From Gimesia fumaroli (GTDB taxonomy: Bacteria > Planctomycetota > Planctomycetia > Planctomycetales > Planctomycetaceae), in the NCBI RefSeq assembly GCF_007754425.1, contig NZ_CP037452.1, positions 4,191,164 to 4,255,163 of the forward strand: DNA of 64,000 nt. The letters are read 5' to 3'. Shown one piece after another: positions 18,963 to 39,359 of the stretch. Each line of letters starts with the position of its first letter. The stretch's first letter is position 1. The position numbers and the translations under genes are program-made. Below the pieces are notes generated by a model. It ran no database searches. It was not told the origin of the DNA and saw nothing but the letters and a program-made list of their open reading frames with translations.

Positions 18963-19568
18963 TCAATCCTGTTTGACAGGAATCGAGATCACCAGACCGG
19001 CAAATCGATCACGTTTATTTTTATTGGCGCTGAATCCAAGATGACACCCCAGGCATCCGTTGTTCATTAATGAGATTGCAACAGCCCGCCGATATACGCC
19101 TTTTTCCACACGCTCATATTCGTGCTTGCCTGCAGAGATCTCTTTCGCTGCCTGCTTCTCAAACTCCCCTTCCGGTTCGTGATCGATGCTCATCGCCTTG
19201 GCATTCACAGCGATCCATTTCGCCTTGATATTTTCCTGCTGCGCAATGTCAGCAAACATGTCTTCCATAACACGTGCAGGCACATTCGCTCTGTCATGAA
19301 AAAAGTAATGATGGTGCATCGCATCCAGAGTCGTCGCGTAAATATTATGCGTCAGCTTCGCTCGCTGGCGTGCTTCTGCAACCGTCACCAGACGCTTCAC
19401 CTTCGTTCGTTTCTCTTCTTTTTTCGTTACAGGAGCCGGCTTTTTCACTTTCGGACGCGATTGACTCTTCTCCACCTCAGGAGGGCCGGCAAACACAGCA
19501 ACCGCAATACTCAAGATACTCACCCCGGCAATTGCCGAACAAACTTTGACTGGCACTGGGAAAGACAT
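18963..19568 (-). CDS. Exported c-type haem protein, DUF3365 (Tll0287-like)
   Basis: The 201-aa protein has an N-terminal hydrophobic signal/anchor (VCSAIAGVSILSIAVAVFAG), a Lys/Pro-rich linker (residues ~35-60) and a DUF3365 domain. The haem-attachment motif CLGCH is at residues 172-176 (MNNGCLGCHLGFSANK). The domain is a PAS-like haem sensor fold known from Tll0287 of cyanobacteria; it may sense redox or gas ligands or carry electrons in the periplasm. AGGAG lies 8 bp before the start. The gene stands alone, so no partner can be named. Haem attachment would need the cell's cytochrome c maturation system. Confidence 0.85.
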   Translation of the reverse strand: MSFPVPVKVCSAIAGVSILSIAVAVFAGPPEVEKSQSRPKVKKPAPVTKKEEKRTKVKRLVTVAEARQRAKLTHNIYATTLDAMHHHYFFHDRANVPARVMEDMFADIAQQENIKAKWIAVNAKAMSIDHEPEGEFEKQAAKEISAGKHEYERVEKGVYRRAVAISLMNNGCLGCHLGFSANKNKRDRFAGLVISIPVKQD

Positions 19569-19884
19569 TCGATTGCTCCTGTATTCTGTCAGAAGTCCTT
19601 TGGGATCTAATTCACAAATTTGATTTCGCCAGCAATTGAGTCTGGCTCCGCTGGATCTATCAGTTTATTCGTTATCGCACCACAAAACAAGACGCATTTA
19701 TCCTGTTTTTAAGTTCAACTGTTGACAGAGGCGTCAAAGTCCGAGATCAGTTCTAAAACGTATTCCTCTTGAGTTCTAGCCCCTTCTCTTGTTATAAACA
19801 TACATTGATGTGTATCTCTGCATCCACTGAACTCAACCGACGATGCAAATACAGATGGAAATTGCAGAACCGGAAAGGAATAAG
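19569..19884. other. Divergent intergenic region, nothing recognised
   Basis: This is the spacer between the start of the DUF3365 gene (minus) and the DUF1501 gene (plus). No repeat, RNA or clear promoter was recognised. Confidence 0.45.
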
Positions 19885-21297
19885 ATGCTTTCATTCTTAA
19901 GCGCACAGAATCAGCAGAGTCGGACTAGATCACGGAGAGAGTTTCTCCGAATCGGTGCACTCGGACTCTCCGGGCTGACTCTAGCCGACTTATTGCGCGC
20001 AGAAGAACAGTCGGGGCTCCGATCTTCCAACAAAGCCATCATTAATGTGCATCTGGATGGTGGTCCGCCGCATATGGATATGATCGATTTGAAACCGGAA
20101 GCTCCGGTTGAAATTCGTGGCGAGTTCCAACCTATTTCTACCAGTGTCTCCGGCGTAAAAATATGCGAGTTAATGCCTCGCCTTGCCGCACAAGCCGATC
20201 AATTTGCCTTTGTGCGATCACTGGTTGGTTCAGCTGGTGCTCACGATGCGTTTCAGACACAATCAGGCTTTAAGAAAAAAGACATGCTCGCTGTGGGCGG
20301 TCGCCCCGCCATGGGTTCGGTTATCTCTCGACTCAAAGGATCTCCGCAGGATCTCTCGCCTCCGTTCGTCGACATCATGCAGGGACGGGGATTAGTTCGG
20401 AACAGCGCACGTCCGGGGTTTCTGGGTCCCGCGTACCAACCTTTCCGCCCCGATATCTCCGACTTGTTTCAGCGTAAGCTCGAAAAAGGTATGCAAGGTG
20501 AACTCAAGCGATTAGGCGCCGATCACCAAGTCAGCCTGAAGCTTAATCCATCGTTGAGCATGGAGCGGCTGGAAAACCGCACGACCTTACTTTCCGAACT
20601 GGATACCATTCGTCGCAAAGTTGATGCCAGCGGCATGATGGACGCGATGGATCGTTTTTCTCAGCAGGCCGTCAGCATTCTGACATCGGGCCGACTGGCA
20701 GATGCCATGGATTTAACATTGGAAGATCCGGCAACTTTAGCGCGCTATACTCCGGCACCACAAAATAGCTCATCTCGCTTTTACACCAGCGAAGGCCCTG
20801 ATGCGGTAAAGAAATTTCTGCTCGCTCGCCGCCTTGTCGAAGCAGGTGTACGTTGTGTGAGTATCTCAATCAGTGATTTCGATACCCACTCCAGCAATTT
20901 CAATCGGATGCGACAGCTATTGCCGCTAGTGGATCATGGTCTCACGACCTTAGTCTCCGACCTCAAAGAACGCGGCATGCTCGATGATGTCACCATTGTT
21001 GCCTGGGGAGAATTCGGCCGTACGCCACGCATCAACTCGAAAAATGGAGGCCGCGACCATTGGCCGCGTGTCGGACCCGCAATTCTTGCTGGCGGCGGAA
21101 TGCAGACCGGTCAGGTTATCGGCAAGACCGACCGCACTGCCAGCGCTGTGATTCAGCGTCCTGTGCACTACAAAGACATCTTTGCCACGCTCTACCATAA
21201 TCTCGGCATTGATCCGCATGCAATCACGCTCACCGACCCGCGAGGACGGCCTCAATATCTGCTGGATGCAGGCACACGACTGACTGAGCTGGTTTGA
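19885..21297 (+). CDS. DUF1501 protein, Tat-exported
   Basis: The 470-aa start at 19885 is preferred because GGAAAGGA lies just upstream; an ATG at 19843 is also in frame but has no ribosome site. A twin-arginine leader (RSRREFLRIGALGLSGLTLADLLRA) is followed by the DUF1501 fold, related to sulfatase/alkaline phosphatase-type hydrolases: INVHLDGGPPHMDMIDLKP, PVEIRGEFQPISTSVSGVKICELMPRLA, VAWGEFGRTPRIN and GGRDHWPRVGPAILAGGGMQTGQVIG. Members are hugely expanded in planctomycetes and usually paired with a DUF1553/DUF1549 cytochrome; here no such partner is adjacent. Enzymatic activity is unproven for the family. Two paralogues occur at 44670 and 47119. Confidence 0.9.
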   Translation: MLSFLSAQNQQSRTRSRREFLRIGALGLSGLTLADLLRAEEQSGLRSSNKAIINVHLDGGPPHMDMIDLKPEAPVEIRGEFQPISTSVSGVKICELMPRLAAQADQFAFVRSLVGSAGAHDAFQTQSGFKKKDMLAVGGRPAMGSVISRLKGSPQDLSPPFVDIMQGRGLVRNSARPGFLGPAYQPFRPDISDLFQRKLEKGMQGELKRLGADHQVSLKLNPSLSMERLENRTTLLSELDTIRRKVDASGMMDAMDRFSQQAVSILTSGRLADAMDLTLEDPATLARYTPAPQNSSSRFYTSEGPDAVKKFLLARRLVEAGVRCVSISISDFDTHSSNFNRMRQLLPLVDHGLTTLVSDLKERGMLDDVTIVAWGEFGRTPRINSKNGGRDHWPRVGPAILAGGGMQTGQVIGKTDRTASAVIQRPVHYKDIFATLYHNLGIDPHAITLTDPRGRPQYLLDAGTRLTELV

Positions 21298-21705
21298 ATC
21301 CTGACAAAAAACACTCCGGTCGGTAAGCTACTTGTTTAGTGCCTGGTATGCTCATTGTGGCGCAAAGAACTTAGTCTGTCGTATCGGGAAGTTACGAATC
21401 CCTAGTCTAACCAGTCCCTGAAAAATAGAACCACCTGCACTTTGGCCCGGTCCACTCTTTAACCCCAAAAACACAAGCTGAAGATCTGCCACTCTGCAAA
21501 CTATTGCTGGATAACTAAAACTTGACAGGCTGATTAAATGTGAAAACAGAACAAGATACTTGGCATGTCAAAGGATGTGCTAGATTGAATGTAATCCCGA
21601 AAATCGCACTGCGATGAGGTGTGTTCCTTGCTTGGGAAATAGTTAGCAAAGCCGGTTCGATAAACCGGCTATTTCACTCCAAATATCGATTACTCTCATC
21701 CATAT
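21298..21705. other. Intergenic region between convergent genes
   Basis: This region follows the DUF1501 stop and precedes the stop of the DUF1573 gene. It holds one hairpin (21650-21670) and no supported gene. Confidence 0.5.
21650..21670 (-). terminator. Hairpin downstream of the DUF1573 gene
   Basis: AGCCGGTT (21650-21657) and AACCGGCT (21663-21670) form a perfect 8-bp stem around a 5-nt loop, 36 bp past the minus-strand stop at 21706. The T-run on the minus side is weak (TTTGCT), so termination is plausible but not certain. Confidence 0.5.
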
Positions 21706-22710
21706 CTATTGAGAGATAATTCTCGCTTGCACCGGCAAATGAATCGATTCGACAGTCCCATCATCTAAGGTAACAGACAACTGCAACTGATCTTTGAAAA
21801 ATTCATCAGGGGAAGATGCCTTGAATTTCAATTTCACTTTCGCGACTGAATCAACCAGACCGACATCGGCAAGTGAGATAAAATCAGGCGCAGACTCAAG
21901 CTTAACGGACTTGAATTCCGAAGAAAGACGATCAACAATCTGAACCGATTGTTCGACTTCAGAGCTCCTGTTAACCAACCCAAAATTGACCCCTGATGGC
22001 GAAGCCTTGAGACGATTCAAGACAGTCAAAAACACATTCACACCTGTAGAAGAATCAATGCCTTTAAAACTGACATTGAACTTCGCCGTGTGGGATTCTA
22101 TCTGTTTCGGTGCAATCCCGTCAAAAATCAGCTTTGTTGCTACGTTCTCATCATTCGTGGTATTCTCGAAAGTCACGTTCAGTGAATCAAAAATCGAATC
22201 AACTGAAACGCTCTCGATCTGAAGGCCCGGAATATCAAATTCAGAATAAACTTTTTCCCCCGGAGTTACCGGTGGCAATGTCACGTAAAATGGACTGATT
22301 GAGTCGCCTGCTGCGAAGTCACCCGTTGCTGCCAGATCAAAATAAGGAAACTCCAGGTTGTCAGTCCAGACTTGGGCTGATATCTTGTGATGCCCTCGTA
22401 ATTTTTTTGTTTCGATCAACATCGTGATATCAGAATATTCGCCTGCTGGTACCATAAAGCTACTGACATCCAGCTTGGTGCACACGCACGAAGTCAGCGT
22501 GTTGGTAATCATTAACGGTTTTGCTGTAGCGTTGTGGAGCCGAAACGTGACGGACACCTCACTTTTTTCTTCCGGGTTAACTGAACCAAGAAGCTCGACT
22601 GAAGGAGAGACATAGACAGCTGCCGACGAAGAGCGATTGGCTCGCCAAAGAGAAGCAATCACCAGAACTCCAATTGTCACTGACAGAAATCCAACCAGAA
22701 ATCTACCCAT
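21706..22710 (-). CDS. Exported DUF1573 protein
   Basis: The 334-aa protein overlaps the preceding gene; the start at 22710 (second of two adjacent ATGs) has GGGAG at the best distance. An N-terminal helix (FLVGFLSVTIGVLVIASLW) acts as signal or anchor. The DUF1573 core follows at residues ~30-130: SPSVELLGSVNPEEKSEVSVTFRLHNATAKPLMI, then TSCVCTKLDVSSFMVPAGEYSDI with the Cys-x-Cys characteristic of the family and a GHHKISAQVWTDN strand. The rest continues as Ig-like beta segments. DUF1573 domains are extracytoplasmic beta-sandwiches of unknown function. It is the third gene of a set with a C-terminally anchored protein and a Cys-rich secreted protein, so it probably works with them at the cell surface or periplasm. 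Confidence 0.85.
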   Translation of the reverse strand: MGRFLVGFLSVTIGVLVIASLWRANRSSSAAVYVSPSVELLGSVNPEEKSEVSVTFRLHNATAKPLMITNTLTSCVCTKLDVSSFMVPAGEYSDITMLIETKKLRGHHKISAQVWTDNLEFPYFDLAATGDFAAGDSISPFYVTLPPVTPGEKVYSEFDIPGLQIESVSVDSIFDSLNVTFENTTNDENVATKLIFDGIAPKQIESHTAKFNVSFKGIDSSTGVNVFLTVLNRLKASPSGVNFGLVNRSSEVEQSVQIVDRLSSEFKSVKLESAPDFISLADVGLVDSVAKVKLKFKASSPDEFFKDQLQLSVTLDDGTVESIHLPVQARIISQ

Positions 22711-22721
22711 CATTTCTCCCT

Positions 22722-23792
22722 TTAACGAACGCGATACCACCAGGTAAATAGAGCAACAACGAGAATCGCATTGGCTATCAGCAAAATCATCCAGATCGAA
22801 GAACCAGACGACTTCACAGACAACTTTGATGTTGGATTCAGACGATCATGGAGGGGATTCATATATTTATCAGGTGTGGCTGTAACATACTCTGAGGACT
22901 CTTGACTTTCCCCCTGCAAAACTGCAAAGTTCCTCTCATACCGTCTAAAAAACTGAGAGGTAATCGGGAACTTGAGCCCCTCCAACTCTTTGGGTGTAAA
23001 CTTCATAATCTCTCGTCTGGCAACACCATAACCCGGGCCGGATAGTCTCCGCGCTACCTGCCGTGGAATAATGACTCCGTCAGTTAAATCAGCTTCAACC
23101 AATGATTCGATTGAAAGGCTACGCGCGGGAATGCCTGTCGTCAATTTGCTCTTGCATTTCACTTCACTCCCAACGACTGTAAGCTCATAACTTATTGATG
23201 CCGGATTTGTCGCATCATCATATTTAGCACTAACTGAATAGAACCCTTTCGATGGATCAACACGAACGACAGAATTGGGAACAGACAATACGGATGAGAT
23301 CGGGAAGCCGCCAATCTCTGTAATGGCCTTCAAATAAACAAGAATATTCTCGTTAATCGATGACGAAATCAGATTGGATTTACCAGGGTCTTGAATTCGG
23401 AGATTTGCATACGGTGTTAATGTCGAACCAACTGCGGTAAACCGATAAGCTGTGCCATCAGACAGAGCCAAGACCTCTTCGATGTCATTATACTGACTCC
23501 CCTTTCCTACAGCAGTCATCTCACTGCCTCCCAGGAATTCAACAACAACATTACCGGACTCTACCCAGATTCGCCCCTGAGACTGAAGCTTCAACCCCTT
23601 GAGATCAAAGTCAAGAGGACGATCATCTTCGCTCTCTCCACTATGGCAAATGAACTCTCCCTGAAAGTTCTTAGACATTACATCAGCCTGTGACAGGATT
23701 GCCGAAAATTGGGAAAGATCACTTCCTTCAGAACTGGAAGTGTTAAAGCAAATCGCGGCCCATAGAAATAGGGAAAATCTATACCAAGTCAT
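22722..23792 (-). CDS. Exported protein with C-terminal membrane anchor, unknown function
   Basis: I do not recognise this 356-aa protein as a known family. It has a cleavable-looking signal peptide (WYRFSLFLWAAICFNTSSS) and a long beta-rich middle (SQGRIWVESGNVVVEFLGG, DGTAYRFTAVGSTLTPYANL, KGFYSVSAKYDDA) that resembles the LolA/LppM-type lipid-binding or carrier proteins only in general outline. The C-terminus is a Ser/Lys linker, one transmembrane helix (SIWMILLIANAILVVALFTWW) and a basic end (YRVR), the layout of a C-terminally anchored or sorted surface protein; no PEP, LPxTG or similar sorting motif is evident. It is followed directly by the DUF1573 gene and preceded, after a 228-bp structured spacer, by the Cys-rich secreted protein. 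Confidence 0.75.
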   Translation of the reverse strand: MTWYRFSLFLWAAICFNTSSSEGSDLSQFSAILSQADVMSKNFQGEFICHSGESEDDRPLDFDLKGLKLQSQGRIWVESGNVVVEFLGGSEMTAVGKGSQYNDIEEVLALSDGTAYRFTAVGSTLTPYANLRIQDPGKSNLISSSINENILVYLKAITEIGGFPISSVLSVPNSVVRVDPSKGFYSVSAKYDDATNPASISYELTVVGSEVKCKSKLTTGIPARSLSIESLVEADLTDGVIIPRQVARRLSGPGYGVARREIMKFTPKELEGLKFPITSQFFRRYERNFAVLQGESQESSEYVTATPDKYMNPLHDRLNPTSKLSVKSSGSSIWMILLIANAILVVALFTWWYRVR

Positions 23793-23907
23793 GATACGTC
23801 ACCTGCATACCCAGGAATCTGGATGAGACAAGAAGGTCGAAAAGGGGAGATATGACATTCAGTCGCCAAGACCACTTACAGGGACTAATAAAAGCCCTTC
23901 ACGTCGG

Positions 23908-23937
23908 CAGACACCTAAATAGAATTTCTGGCGTCTG
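23908..23937 (-). other. Hairpin in spacer of the exported-protein cluster
   Basis: CAGACACC (23908-23915) and GGCGTCTG (23930-23937) pair with one G-T mismatch around a 14-nt loop. It lies between the Cys-rich gene and the anchored-protein gene and could add to transcript structure or processing there. Confidence 0.35.
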
Positions 23938-23948
23938 AATAAATCGAG

Positions 23949-24003
23949 TAGCGGGCGGCCCAGTTTTGGATAAAACTCATGATACCCGATTGTCCGCCCG
24001 CTA
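23949..24003 (-). terminator. Strong two-level hairpin after the Cys-rich protein gene
   Basis: An outer perfect 10-bp GC-rich stem (TAGCGGGCGG at 23949-23958 with CCGCCCGCTA at 23994-24003) encloses an inner stem-loop AGTTTT-GGAT-AAAACT (23962-23977). It begins 17 bp past the stop of the Cys-rich gene on the minus strand. No T-run follows, so it may act as a partial terminator or as a 3'-end stabiliser that sets expression of the first gene above the next two. Confidence 0.55.
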
Positions 24004-24020
24004 ACTGAATTCCGATCCTG

Positions 24021-24449
24021 TTAACCACCAGCAGGACATGCTGCGCCCGTTGGGCCAAATGCGGTCGTCGTACCACAAGTTGATGCCGCACCAGCTGCAC
24101 AATAAACCTGAGCTACTGGTGGCCAAATTGGACTAAGTGTACCAATTTTCTTTGTGCAATGAACTTCTTTTCTGCATACCCAAGACCCGTTGCCTTGTGA
24201 CATTTGACCTGAAGCCTGATTCCCATATGTTCCGAGCGGAACCACTACTGCATAAGTGTAGTAACCGCATGTTTGAATGGTATCAGGAAGCTGTAATCCA
24301 GTTGGACAAGGACCTTGATTTCCAATCGCAGACCAGTTACATGTCGTGGCAGGACCTACATTCCCTACGGTGTAACAGGGCCCCGCTATGGAATGACTGA
24401 CATAGCCCAAGGCCACGATAGACAACACGAATAACATACATTTTTTCAT
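24021..24449 (-). CDS. Small secreted cysteine-rich protein, unknown function
   Basis: The 142-aa start at 24449 has GGAGAATTACT directly upstream and begins a signal peptide (MKKCMLFVLSIVALGYVSHSIAG); the frame is open further but without support. The mature part, about 119 residues beginning GPCYTVG, has nine cysteines spread evenly (GPCY, TTCN, GPCP, QTCG, WVCR, VHCT, VYCA, STCG, AACP), is Gly/Thr-rich and has few charges, so it is probably disulfide-rich and extracellular. No known domain was recognised. It heads a cluster with an anchored protein and a DUF1573 protein and is separated from them by a strong hairpin. A structural surface component or a secreted effector are both possible. 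Confidence 0.75.
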   Translation of the reverse strand: MKKCMLFVLSIVALGYVSHSIAGPCYTVGNVGPATTCNWSAIGNQGPCPTGLQLPDTIQTCGYYTYAVVVPLGTYGNQASGQMSQGNGSWVCRKEVHCTKKIGTLSPIWPPVAQVYCAAGAASTCGTTTAFGPTGAACPAGG

Positions 24450-24935
24450 AGTAATTCTCCATTCCATAGATAAGGAACAATTAACCACAGACACATTTAA
24501 GTACACAATAACATCTTGTCCACATAAAAACAAGGGTTCTCTATGTACATAACAACAAAACCAATCATTGAAATCTACCTAGACCTAAATCTCATCCACG
24601 TTTCGTCAGGCTGCCTCAAAATGGCTTCATCCTGCGCCAGAGTACGCTTTCATTTCGAGAAGTGCTGACTTAGCCGGGCATACCCTGCTCATAGCTGACA
24701 AATTGTTCGAATTCAGGCCCAGTGGTTTATTTTTCTCAAGAGAGGCAGGCTCAATATCTGCTTGAAGCAGAAACCTCTCTGTCTAAACCATTTTGAATCT
24801 GAGTACACTCGTTTATCCTGAAGCACTCCTTGTTTCACTCTTGTGCGACATGTATGATCGTTAGGTCAAAGAAGATCCTATTATAGTCGCGTCAACAGCC
24901 TGATGTATCGCATCCTGACAGGAGAGCTTCCCACC
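24450..24935. other. Divergent intergenic region with a composite hairpin
   Basis: This is the spacer between the Cys-rich gene (minus) and the DUF1080 gene (plus). It should contain promoters for both. Apart from the hairpin at 24739-24780 no gene or RNA was recognised. Confidence 0.5.
24739..24780 (+). other. Composite hairpin upstream of DUF1080 gene
   Basis: AGAGAGG (24739-24745) pairs with CCTCTCT (24774-24780). The enclosed TCTGCTTGAAGCAGA (24757-24771) is itself a near-perfect hairpin. It lies about 155 bp before the DUF1080 start and could be a leader structure; no known riboswitch consensus was recognised. Confidence 0.4.
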
Positions 24936-25664
24936 ATGAAAAATATGATCGCCGCCCTGTATAGTTTTATCCTTTTTCTATTCTGCATCTTGTCTGGTGC
25001 GCAGGCAGACGGTCTGCCACACTATAAGCCATTGTTTAACGGCAAAGACCTGACCGGCTGGGTGAATGTGAATACGGATAAAGATACCTGGTACGTCAAA
25101 GATGGCATGCTGATCTGTACGGGACACCCCATCGGCGTCATGCGAACCGATAAGCAGTACGAAAACTTTCTGTTGCACGTTGAATGGCGGCACATGGAAG
25201 CAGGCGGCAATTCCGGTGTCTTTGCCTGGAGCGAAGGGACTGTTCCCGAAGGAAGACGCTTACCCAAGGGAATGGAAATCCAAATGCTGGAACTCGACTG
25301 GGTGAATCAGCACAAGAAAAAAGATGGCACCTTGCCCCCAATCGCGTATGTGCACGGCGAACTTTTCGGTGCCAACGGCTTGACCACGATCCCCGACAAC
25401 CCGCGGGGTACACGCAGCAAATCAATCGAAAATCGCTGTAAAGGAAAAGGGCAATGGAATGTCTACGATGTCGTTTGTGTCGATGGTGTCGTCAAACTTT
25501 CCGTAAACGGTAAATTCGTCAACGGCGTCCGAAACGCATCCATCAAAAAAGGCTATCTCTGCCTTGAATCAGAAGGGGCCGAAATTCAGTTTCGCAGTAT
25601 TCAGATCATGGAATTACCCCCCGGAGTCACTTCCAAAGCACAAACGGCCCCCCTGCTGAAGTGA
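24936..25664 (+). CDS. Secreted DUF1080 (3-keto-disaccharide hydrolase-like) protein
   Basis: The 242-aa start at 24936 begins a signal peptide ([21 protein letters not shown]). The DUF1080 concanavalin-like fold is clear: [33 protein letters not shown], then [21 protein letters not shown] and [12 protein letters not shown], ending [39 protein letters not shown]. The family includes enzymes cleaving 3-keto-glycosides and many uncharacterised carbohydrate-binding proteins. Planctomycetes carry dozens. It lies upstream of the DUF1592/DUF1552 pair on the same strand but is separated from them by a 10-bp inverted repeat. Confidence 0.9.
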
Positions 25665-38978: not shown

Positions 38979-39359
38979 GTGATCGGCAAACTGCTCACTC
39001 TACTGTTAACACTTCTGATACTCGCCTGCCCCTTTAATTGCATGCAGAGTAGCGCAGAAGATACAGACACAGCGGTTCACAGTTGCTGCAGTCATTGCCA
39101 GCCACCGTCATCGGAAAACCCATTGGCCCCAGAACCTGCTTCATCGGATTCCTGCCAGTGTTTTTGCTCAGGCGCGATTCTGGAAAACGCCGACCAGTTT
39201 GAACAGGCCAACCTAATCGTACTCTGGTTTGCAATCCCACAACAGGACGCCATCTTTCAACAAATCAGTATCAATCATCAGACGGACATCGTCCTCTTAG
39301 ATGCAGTTCCGCCCTCCGGCCGAGCTCTGCGCTGTCTGCAGATGTCATATCAGTGCTGA
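38979..39359 (+). CDS. Small exported cysteine-rich protein, possibly metal-related
   Basis: The 126-aa protein starts at a GTG with AGAGGT 6 bp upstream. A signal peptide (LLTLLLTLLILACPFNCMQSSA) is followed by a Cys/His cluster: HSCCSHCQPPSS and DSCQCFCSGAI, six cysteines plus two His in ~40 residues, which is suggestive of metal binding. The end carries a final LRCLQMSYQC. Short proteins with this composition are found beside efflux systems in planctomycetes, and here the next gene begins an ABC exporter operon 112 bp later on the same strand. I do not recognise a named family. Metal binding is an inference from composition and place. Confidence 0.72.
   Translation: MIGKLLTLLLTLLILACPFNCMQSSAEDTDTAVHSCCSHCQPPSSENPLAPEPASSDSCQCFCSGAILENADQFEQANLIVLWFAIPQQDAIFQQISINHQTDIVLLDAVPPSGRALRCLQMSYQC

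Follow-up and report, generated by a model that had tools for sequence, protein, structure and literature searches.

A probable mobile Planctomycetota cassette in Gimesia fumaroli joining a cysteine-rich exported protein to a membrane-anchored protein and a DUF1573 protein

We analyzed a stretch of 64,000 nucleotides (nt) from Gimesia fumaroli (NCBI RefSeq assembly GCF_007754425.1, contig NZ_CP037452.1, positions 4,191,164 to 4,255,163 of the forward strand), hereafter the window, in a genome that consists of one contig of 7.7 Mb. Three consecutive genes on its minus strand (positions 21706 to 24449) encode a small cysteine-rich secreted protein (gene 1), an exported protein with a C-terminal membrane anchor (gene 2), and a DUF1573 protein (gene 3). 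Our best explanation is that this trio is probably one copy of a mobile Planctomycetota cassette, made up of a hypervariable exported substrate and envelope machinery, with gene 1 as the presumed substrate and the products of genes 2 and 3 as its presumed partners in the envelope. A preliminary description had proposed an undescribed exported system of a Cys-rich protein with dedicated surface machinery. The recurrence of the layout, a protein in which gene 2, a C39 peptidase, and DUF1573 are fused, and a statistical enrichment support the core of this proposal. That description did not include the predicted LolA-like fold of the gene 2 family, the C39 peptidases and PMT_2-type glycosyltransferases of sister cassettes, the species-specific insertion, or the lack of detectable gene 1 homologs.

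Gene 1 (24021..24449, minus strand; open reading frame [ORF] and sequence) encodes 142 amino acids (aa): a signal peptide (MKKCMLFVLSIVALGYVSHSIA), with its cleavage site set by eye, followed by ~120 aa that end in CPAGG. One of its 10 cysteines lies in the signal peptide and nine lie in the mature part. Gene 2 (22722..23792, minus strand) encodes a 356-aa exported protein with a C-terminal transmembrane (TM) helix at residues 331 to 355 (22728..22802, minus strand), which is also present in the structural model, contains Asn341 (22770-22772), and is followed by only a few residues forming a basic tail. Gene 3 (21706..22713, minus strand) encodes a 335-aa protein with an N-terminal membrane anchor and a DUF1573 domain (Pfam PF07610); its CVC motif occupies residues 76 to 78 (22480-22488, minus strand). 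Genes 2 and 3 are tightly coupled, as the gene 2 stop ends at 22722 and the gene 3 ATG is at 22713, with an alternative GTG start at 22740 also open. The gene order and strand, the nine mature cysteines, the anchor of gene 2, and the coupling are as the preliminary description had them. Genes 1 and 2 had no match in Pfam, NCBIfam, PHROGs, or PADLOC.

The layout recurs within the genome, within the genus, and beyond it. The source genome has 12 DUF1573 matches, three inside one 5,748-aa ORF and nine stand-alone, and at five of the nine stand-alone loci (the window, L018, L020, L022, and L023) DUF1573 has two companions, one protein that is secreted and Cys-rich and one that is anchored at its C terminus. 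In sister cassettes, a small secreted Cys-rich ORF stands at the place of gene 1. In G031, a genome of another genus, a TM protein and a secreted Cys-rich protein of 147 aa precede the DUF1573 gene, with gene order and strand as in the window. From other Gimesia genomes, we fetched 30 regions around accessory DUF1573 genes, excluding most matches in giant ORFs and three genus-wide ortholog groups (the L017, L019, and L021 types, judged by size). All three parts were present in 13 of these (L029, L031, L034, L037, L039, L042, L044, L047, L051, L053, L054, L055, and L056), gene 2 being recognized partly by its TM pattern. Two copies of the trio occur at L047, and at L053 there is a further gene 1-gene 2 pair with a putative DUF1573. 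Of the other 17 regions, some were truncated by contig ends or showed DUF1573 with gene 2 or C39 alone; the remainder were without such a layout. Single-sequence searches with genes 1 and 2 found no match in any of the 16 other Gimesia genomes. Co-conservation of the trio in relatives, on which the preliminary description had staked its proposal, appears to fail within the genus by single-sequence search and holds by layout and profile.

A shorter arrangement was also observed. At L024 in the source genome, an anchored protein stands beside DUF1573 without a Cys-rich gene; together with L041, L043, and L045, this makes four Gimesia genomes in which a pair of gene 2 and a short DUF1573 gene, without a Cys-rich gene, has similar neighbors. 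This pair may be a domesticated form.

Loci across the phylum were collected by glycosyltransferase alignment against genome_contigs, where the best 80 of 438 relatives gave 79 loci (77 in records that bear a Planctomycetota name). Among the 79, a gene-2-like protein (by hidden Markov model or TM pattern) occurs at 48, DUF1573 at 37, and both at 35; a Cys-rich protein joins these two at 26, and a C39 peptidase is found at 16. For an enrichment test we used 78 of these loci (L059, from Gimesia, was left out), which had not been chosen by Cys content, and a profile trained on Gimesia and G031 proteins, which identified 38 gene 2 homologs in 36 of the 78 loci. Of the small ORFs near a gene 2 homolog, 21 of 51 were Cys-rich and had a signal, compared with 31 of the 399 located in other places (odds ratio, 8.3; P = 4e-9); a small Cys-rich C39 protein can be among the 21. 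Because the loci were picked by glycosyltransferase, this enrichment speaks for a link between gene 1 and gene 2, not for prevalence. The gene 2 match in 13 of 294 phylum genomes at E ≤ 1e-15 is no estimate of prevalence either, as the cutoff was strict and general LolA-like proteins also match.

Two glycosyltransferase loci come from genomes labeled as proteobacterial. L080 (a Rhodanobacteraceae metagenome-assembled genome [MAG]) and L115 (an Emcibacter MAG) carry a Planctomycetota-type glycosyltransferase on short contigs, and L115 also carries Cys-rich, gene 2, and DUF1573 genes. Both contigs are probably mis-binned.

The window cassette is a ~3.5-kb species-specific insertion between its flanking genes, a DUF1501 gene (19843..21297, plus strand; Pfam PF07394) and a gene of the 3-keto-disaccharide hydrolase family (24903..25664, plus strand; Pfam PF06439), both of which lie outside the cassette. 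The end of the former (21297) and the start of the latter (24903) are 3.6 kb apart, but in 15 of 16 other Gimesia genomes a distance of 115 to 244 bp separates the aligned parts of these genes (G011 was not resolvable). In the nearest genome, G014, the flanks are 115 bp apart and 86% and 91% identical. The cassette lies between two imperfect, degraded ~330-bp copies of the junction stretch, given without strand and with approximate right boundaries. The left copy (21251..21577) comprises the intact DUF1501 3' end, intergenic DNA, and a degraded hydrolase 5' piece (21474-21577, 76% identical to the G014 gene); the right copy (24750..25080) comprises a degraded DUF1501 3' piece (24750-24799, 72% identical to 21251-21300), intergenic DNA, and the intact hydrolase start. 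Such copies would be expected if a circle had integrated through recombination at the shared junction, or if the cassette lay within an old tandem duplication. Third-position GC is 0.35 to 0.46 in the trio versus 0.51 to 0.59 in seven other window genes. The stand-alone DUF1573 matches of G014 are three core genes and one cassette (L056), so that, by DUF1573 detection, G014 has none of the cassettes of the source genome. Transposase- or integrase-like ORFs near L034, L037, L039, L042, L044, L051, and L056 (judged by eye, from ORF ends) are consistent with cassette mobility.

By sequence comparison, gene 2 is a predicted member of an unnamed family, linked to it through the G031 homolog. Single-sequence search with gene 2 matched none of 98 other genomes, missing G031, which was in that set, and found nothing among plasmids; a two-row gene 2 profile found only the source genome among 392 genomes and nothing in genome_contigs. 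Compared directly, the window and G031 proteins match at an E value of 3e-6 by BLASTP with 25% identity, and with the signal and TM segments removed the match has a z score of 10, with 0 of 500 shuffles as high; the two are homologous. The G031 protein without its TM matches the family profile (E = 3.4e-8), and profile comparison of the window and G031 proteins against the family gave 96.5% (E = 9.6e-10). As a control, the family profile was run against 123 ORFs over 133 kb and matched window gene 2 alone. Aligned with 20 Gimesia members, the body of window gene 2 scored mostly at chance level, with L056 (0 of 200 shuffles as high) and own24 (1 of 200) standing out.

A C-terminal TM is present in all 43 profile-picked members of the family. 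No curated family covers the set: of 44 proteins scanned, at most one matched any family at E ≤ 0.01. An Asn within the TM occurs in 29 of the 43 profile-picked phylum members and in all seven members found without a pattern (source genome and G031); L149, L151, and L154 are without it. We had considered this Asn invariant (22/22) and rejected the idea, as that set was partly picked by a pattern that demands Asn; the residue is common but not universal. The Gimesia family member L059, modeled with 43 sequences, gave a predicted local distance difference test (pLDDT) score of 72 and a predicted template modeling (pTM) score of 0.62. Among solved structures, it best matches members of the LolA superfamily (3buu, E = 1.2e-6, probability 1.00), with LolA, LolB, RseB, and MucB ranking below 3buu, and RseB and MucB below LolA.

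Gene 1 itself is isolated in sequence. It has no sequence match in the PDB, none among phages, and none to any Pfam or NCBIfam model for bacteriocins or for ribosomally synthesized and posttranslationally modified peptides (RiPPs; 0 families). A search of 98 other genomes returned only two weak matches (L011 and L012); both lie in other Cys-rich contexts, and the matched frame of each contains a stop. One of 27 comparisons (own18 cys1) had 0 of 200 shuffles as high, possibly by chance. Of eight aligned Cys-rich proteins, seven have GG at or near the C terminus; this ending was dropped as a shared signature of gene 1, as most Gimesia cassettes elsewhere end differently.

Gene 3 passes the Pfam cutoff for PF07610 (E = 4.7e-10; 39.8 bits versus 26.1). 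It resembles the DUF1573 family, including its OS_HP2 (seleno)protein subfamily, in this match and in its CxC, and it differs from OS_HP2 (NCBIfam NF041425) in scoring 29.9 bits versus a cutoff of 100 and in having CVC instead of CGC. Its relative in G031 matches at an E value of 2.4e-13 over residues 18 to 289 (27% identity over the alignment); a single-sequence search of 58 other genomes found only this protein and a weak match in G082. The preliminary description had singled out a Cys-x-Cys in the DUF1573 protein. The motif is there, and it is not distinctive, since all seven aligned DUF1573 proteins have a CxC (CGC in five, CNC in one, and CVC in gene 3). A table in PMC9312934 includes DUF1573 selenoproteins that have UGC at the CGC site, which suggests that DUF1573 proteins are thiol proteins.

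DUF1573 also occurs in giant ORFs that hold several matches each, namely, a 5,748-aa ORF near 2.19 Mb in G000 and a 12,618-aa ORF near 2.49 Mb in G008.

Sister cassettes carry further genes. A C39 peptidase (PF03412) lies beside or is fused to DUF1573 at L018, L029, L042 (below the Pfam cutoff), L047, L054, and L055, and at L023 it was identified by sequence and local alignment. C39-DUF1573 fusions are found at L029, L047, and L054 by Pfam for both parts (the DUF1573 part of L054 being 0.1 bit under the cutoff in one scan and over it in another) and at L023. At L055, a single 913-aa protein comprises gene 2, C39, and DUF1573, with the DUF1573 part at 20.3 bits, under the cutoff. All nine C39 stretches that were aligned retain the Cys and His, and eight of them, judged by eye, retain the Asp, with Glu instead in L029. 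A PMT_2-type glycosyltransferase of ~600 aa recurs as well (three were scanned, of which the one in L034 is 0.1 bit below the cutoff), and L023 additionally has a MauE-like redox protein (PF07291, below the cutoff). Where a cassette includes C39, its Cys-rich protein tends to have a double-glycine-like site between the signal peptide and first mature Cys. By a crude pattern, such a GG/GA-type site was present in 11 of the 18 proteins that have C39 nearby versus 7 of 42 without (Fisher P = 0.001; L059, on the same contig as L054, excluded); examples are PLSLDQLQAVTGGGDC in L047 and DLSEMSHIRGG in L147, a later find in which C39 is also present. Window gene 1 has no double-glycine site, only the signal peptide preceding its first mature Cys.

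Several known systems share features with these cassettes. The C39 double-glycine export of bacteriocins and RiPPs by AMS/PCAT transporters has a parallel in sister cassettes in which a Cys-rich precursor with a GG/GA leader occurs together with C39. Unlike that system, sister cassettes put a Sec-type signal peptide in front, their peptidase is exported and often fused to DUF1573 rather than part of an ATP-binding cassette (ABC) transporter, and the window cassette is without leader or C39. The predicted fold of the gene 2 family member places it with the LolA/LolB/RseB superfamily. LolA is a soluble periplasmic carrier, whereas the gene 2 family has its C-terminal TM anchor and falls under no curated family. 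The NVEALA-type peptides of Bacteroidetes are small, exported, and Cys-rich, with a leader-like motif, and are sometimes found near DUF1573 genes; at E ≤ 0.1, neither Pfam nor NCBIfam gave an NVEALA match for any of 33 Cys-rich proteins. A description of the cassette was not found in the literature searched, which covers few subscription papers or preprints. Exported Cys-rich peptides processed by C39 are a known kind, and their combination with an anchored LolA-like protein and DUF1573 appears to be new.

Taken together, these features suggest how such a cassette might work. Gene 1 would be exported by Sec and folded with disulfides at the cell surface. The DUF1573 protein would be a tethered immunoglobulin-like protein whose CxC shuffles or guards the disulfides of gene 1. 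Gene 2 would form a LolA-like pocket, anchored by its C-terminal helix, that binds gene 1 and either holds it or hands it over at the membrane; the role of holder or carrier is proposed because the family has a LolA fold. In sister cassettes, the exported C39 peptidase would cut off the double-glycine leader and the PMT_2 glycosyltransferase would probably glycosylate the product, and the window cassette would be a simpler form that uses the signal peptide only. From the turnover and variety of the cassettes, the product may have a role in contacts between strains, either competition or recognition, which is the weakest step.

A number of observations weigh against the cassette explanation, or against parts of it. 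DUF1573 occurs without the other two parts at L017, L019, and L021 in the source genome. The phylum loci were chosen by an enzyme, the glycosyltransferase, that is not found in the window cassette; only 17 of the 38 gene 2 homologs in those loci have a Cys-rich neighbor within 1.5 kb, and the gene 2 loci L146, L148, and L150 to L152 of the source genome have no called Cys-rich neighbor. Gene 1 is not significantly similar to its G031 counterpart, with 75 of 1,000 full shuffles scoring as high, so that the case for their kinship is made by position, size, signal, and Cys content. The match of window gene 2 to a profile of other family members (E = 4e-4, with 0 of 20 full shuffles as high) rests on the C-terminal TM, dropping to an E value of 1.4 without it, and a shuffled body joined to the real TM reaches 9e-4 (0 of 20 exceed the score of the real gene 2); therefore, family membership goes by way of G031. 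The AlphaFold model of window gene 2 is poor (pLDDT, 60; pTM, 0.41) and matches no PDB structure at E ≤ 1e-3, and its predicted LolA-like fold is accordingly carried over from the family member model. No window ORF matches a C39 profile, and the glycosyltransferase was likewise not found in the window. The association of leader and peptidase comes from a pattern written after examples had been seen, and it includes rows that are mis-segmented, doubtful, or from proteins outside a cassette (L023, placed wrongly; L134, with two clusters; L060; L098_2065; and L134_1). Finally, turnover is not total: by eye, the gene 2 loci L147 and L154, and L152 and L156, look orthologous between the source genome and G014. 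No DUF1573 was detected at these loci; at L147, C39 is present as well, and a clear double-glycine leader is seen in the Cys-rich protein.

Alternatively, gene 1 might be a bacteriocin-like weapon that kills or inhibits close relatives, with gene 2, the DUF1573 protein, or both serving in self-protection. This would suit the turnover between close species, the presence of several cassettes per genome, the tandem gene 1 copies, the transposase-like ORFs seen by eye near several cassettes, and the double-glycine leaders that occur with C39; one each of the 33 Cys-rich proteins also matches NCBIfam RiPP_CCRG-2 (E = 5.5e-4) and Pfam Mersacidin (E = 0.016). We find a weapon possible but doubtful, as the window proteins match no toxin, immunity, or defense family (Pfam, NCBIfam, PHROGs, PADLOC), the window copy has neither leader nor C39, and gene 1 exceeds most bacteriocins in size. 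There is also no ABC transporter among the three cassette genes, and none was noticed in the ORFs read, for which no profile search was made. It is unlikely that gene 1 is instead a building block of the surface or matrix, that is, a disulfide cross-linked coat, fiber, or crateriform-pit protein that varies like surface antigens. A secreted, Cys-rich product, several cassettes per genome, and a glycosyltransferase in sister cassettes would all be expected of such a protein, but the absence of a detected ortholog in all 16 congeners argues that it is no core structure, and no repeat or self-assembly motif was seen by eye.

A sensory arrangement strikes us as rather improbable; here gene 2 would be an anchored sensor resembling RseB, and gene 1 the envelope or intercellular signal that it detects. 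In its favor, the LolA-fold matches of the family model include RseB and MucB, and an anchor that crosses the membrane once and commonly contains Asn could transmit a signal across it. However, RseB and MucB rank below LolA, few residues follow the TM, and the three cassette genes of the window include no regulator. Last, the trio could be three unrelated, fast-evolving exported genes that became neighbors by chance in a recent insertion, as the lack of genus orthologs of genes 1 and 2 by single-sequence search might suggest. We give this very little credence, since the occurrence of the trio in G031 and at many other loci, the enrichment (P = 4e-9), and the fusions already contradict it.

The preferred explanation, a mobile cassette of exported substrate and envelope machinery, can be extended to the phylum. 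The window copy might then represent an unnamed, phylum-wide class of mobile Planctomycetota cassettes for Sec-exported, often double-glycine-processed, disulfide-rich, probably glycosylated, and highly varied proteins, which would mature in the envelope without an ABC exporter, with a LolA-like anchored partner and a DUF1573 redox protein, and would act in recognition or competition between strains, like polymorphic toxins or microcins. We advance this only tentatively, as an idea somewhat more apt to fail than to hold. No established function of DUF1573 was found in the literature searched, and the cassette gives the domain a context and a testable client. It also places C39 peptidases in an exported context separate from ABC transporters, and it presents a case of related partner proteins around a substrate that can vary freely. 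Should the cassettes indeed act in contacts between strains, a family of effectors of this type would exist in a phylum about whose interactions little is known.

A hairpin lies 3' of gene 1 (23949..24003, minus strand; sequence and folding), in which a perfect, GC-rich 10-bp stem pairs 24003-23994 with 23958-23949. From it, the preliminary description had suggested that gene 1 is made in larger amounts. The hairpin exists, but its folding excess over shuffles is moderate (z = -2.74 over 131 nt; z = -1.17 for the whole 228-nt gap between genes 1 and 2), and no terminator-like site or tail was found there. In 13 such gaps folded across cassettes, z ranged from -3.5 to +1.7; the hairpin is therefore not consistent between cassettes, and larger amounts of gene 1 are unsupported. 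We dropped it as an expression signal and as a determinant of stoichiometry.

Elsewhere in the window, profiles of gene 2 and DUF1573 matched nothing besides the trio. A second small Cys-rich ORF (38979-39359, plus strand) encodes 126 aa with 10 Cys and a signal-like start. Just beyond the cassette flank, 18963-19568 (minus strand) encodes a small exported protein with a CxxCH motif and a Tll0287-like match (PF11845).

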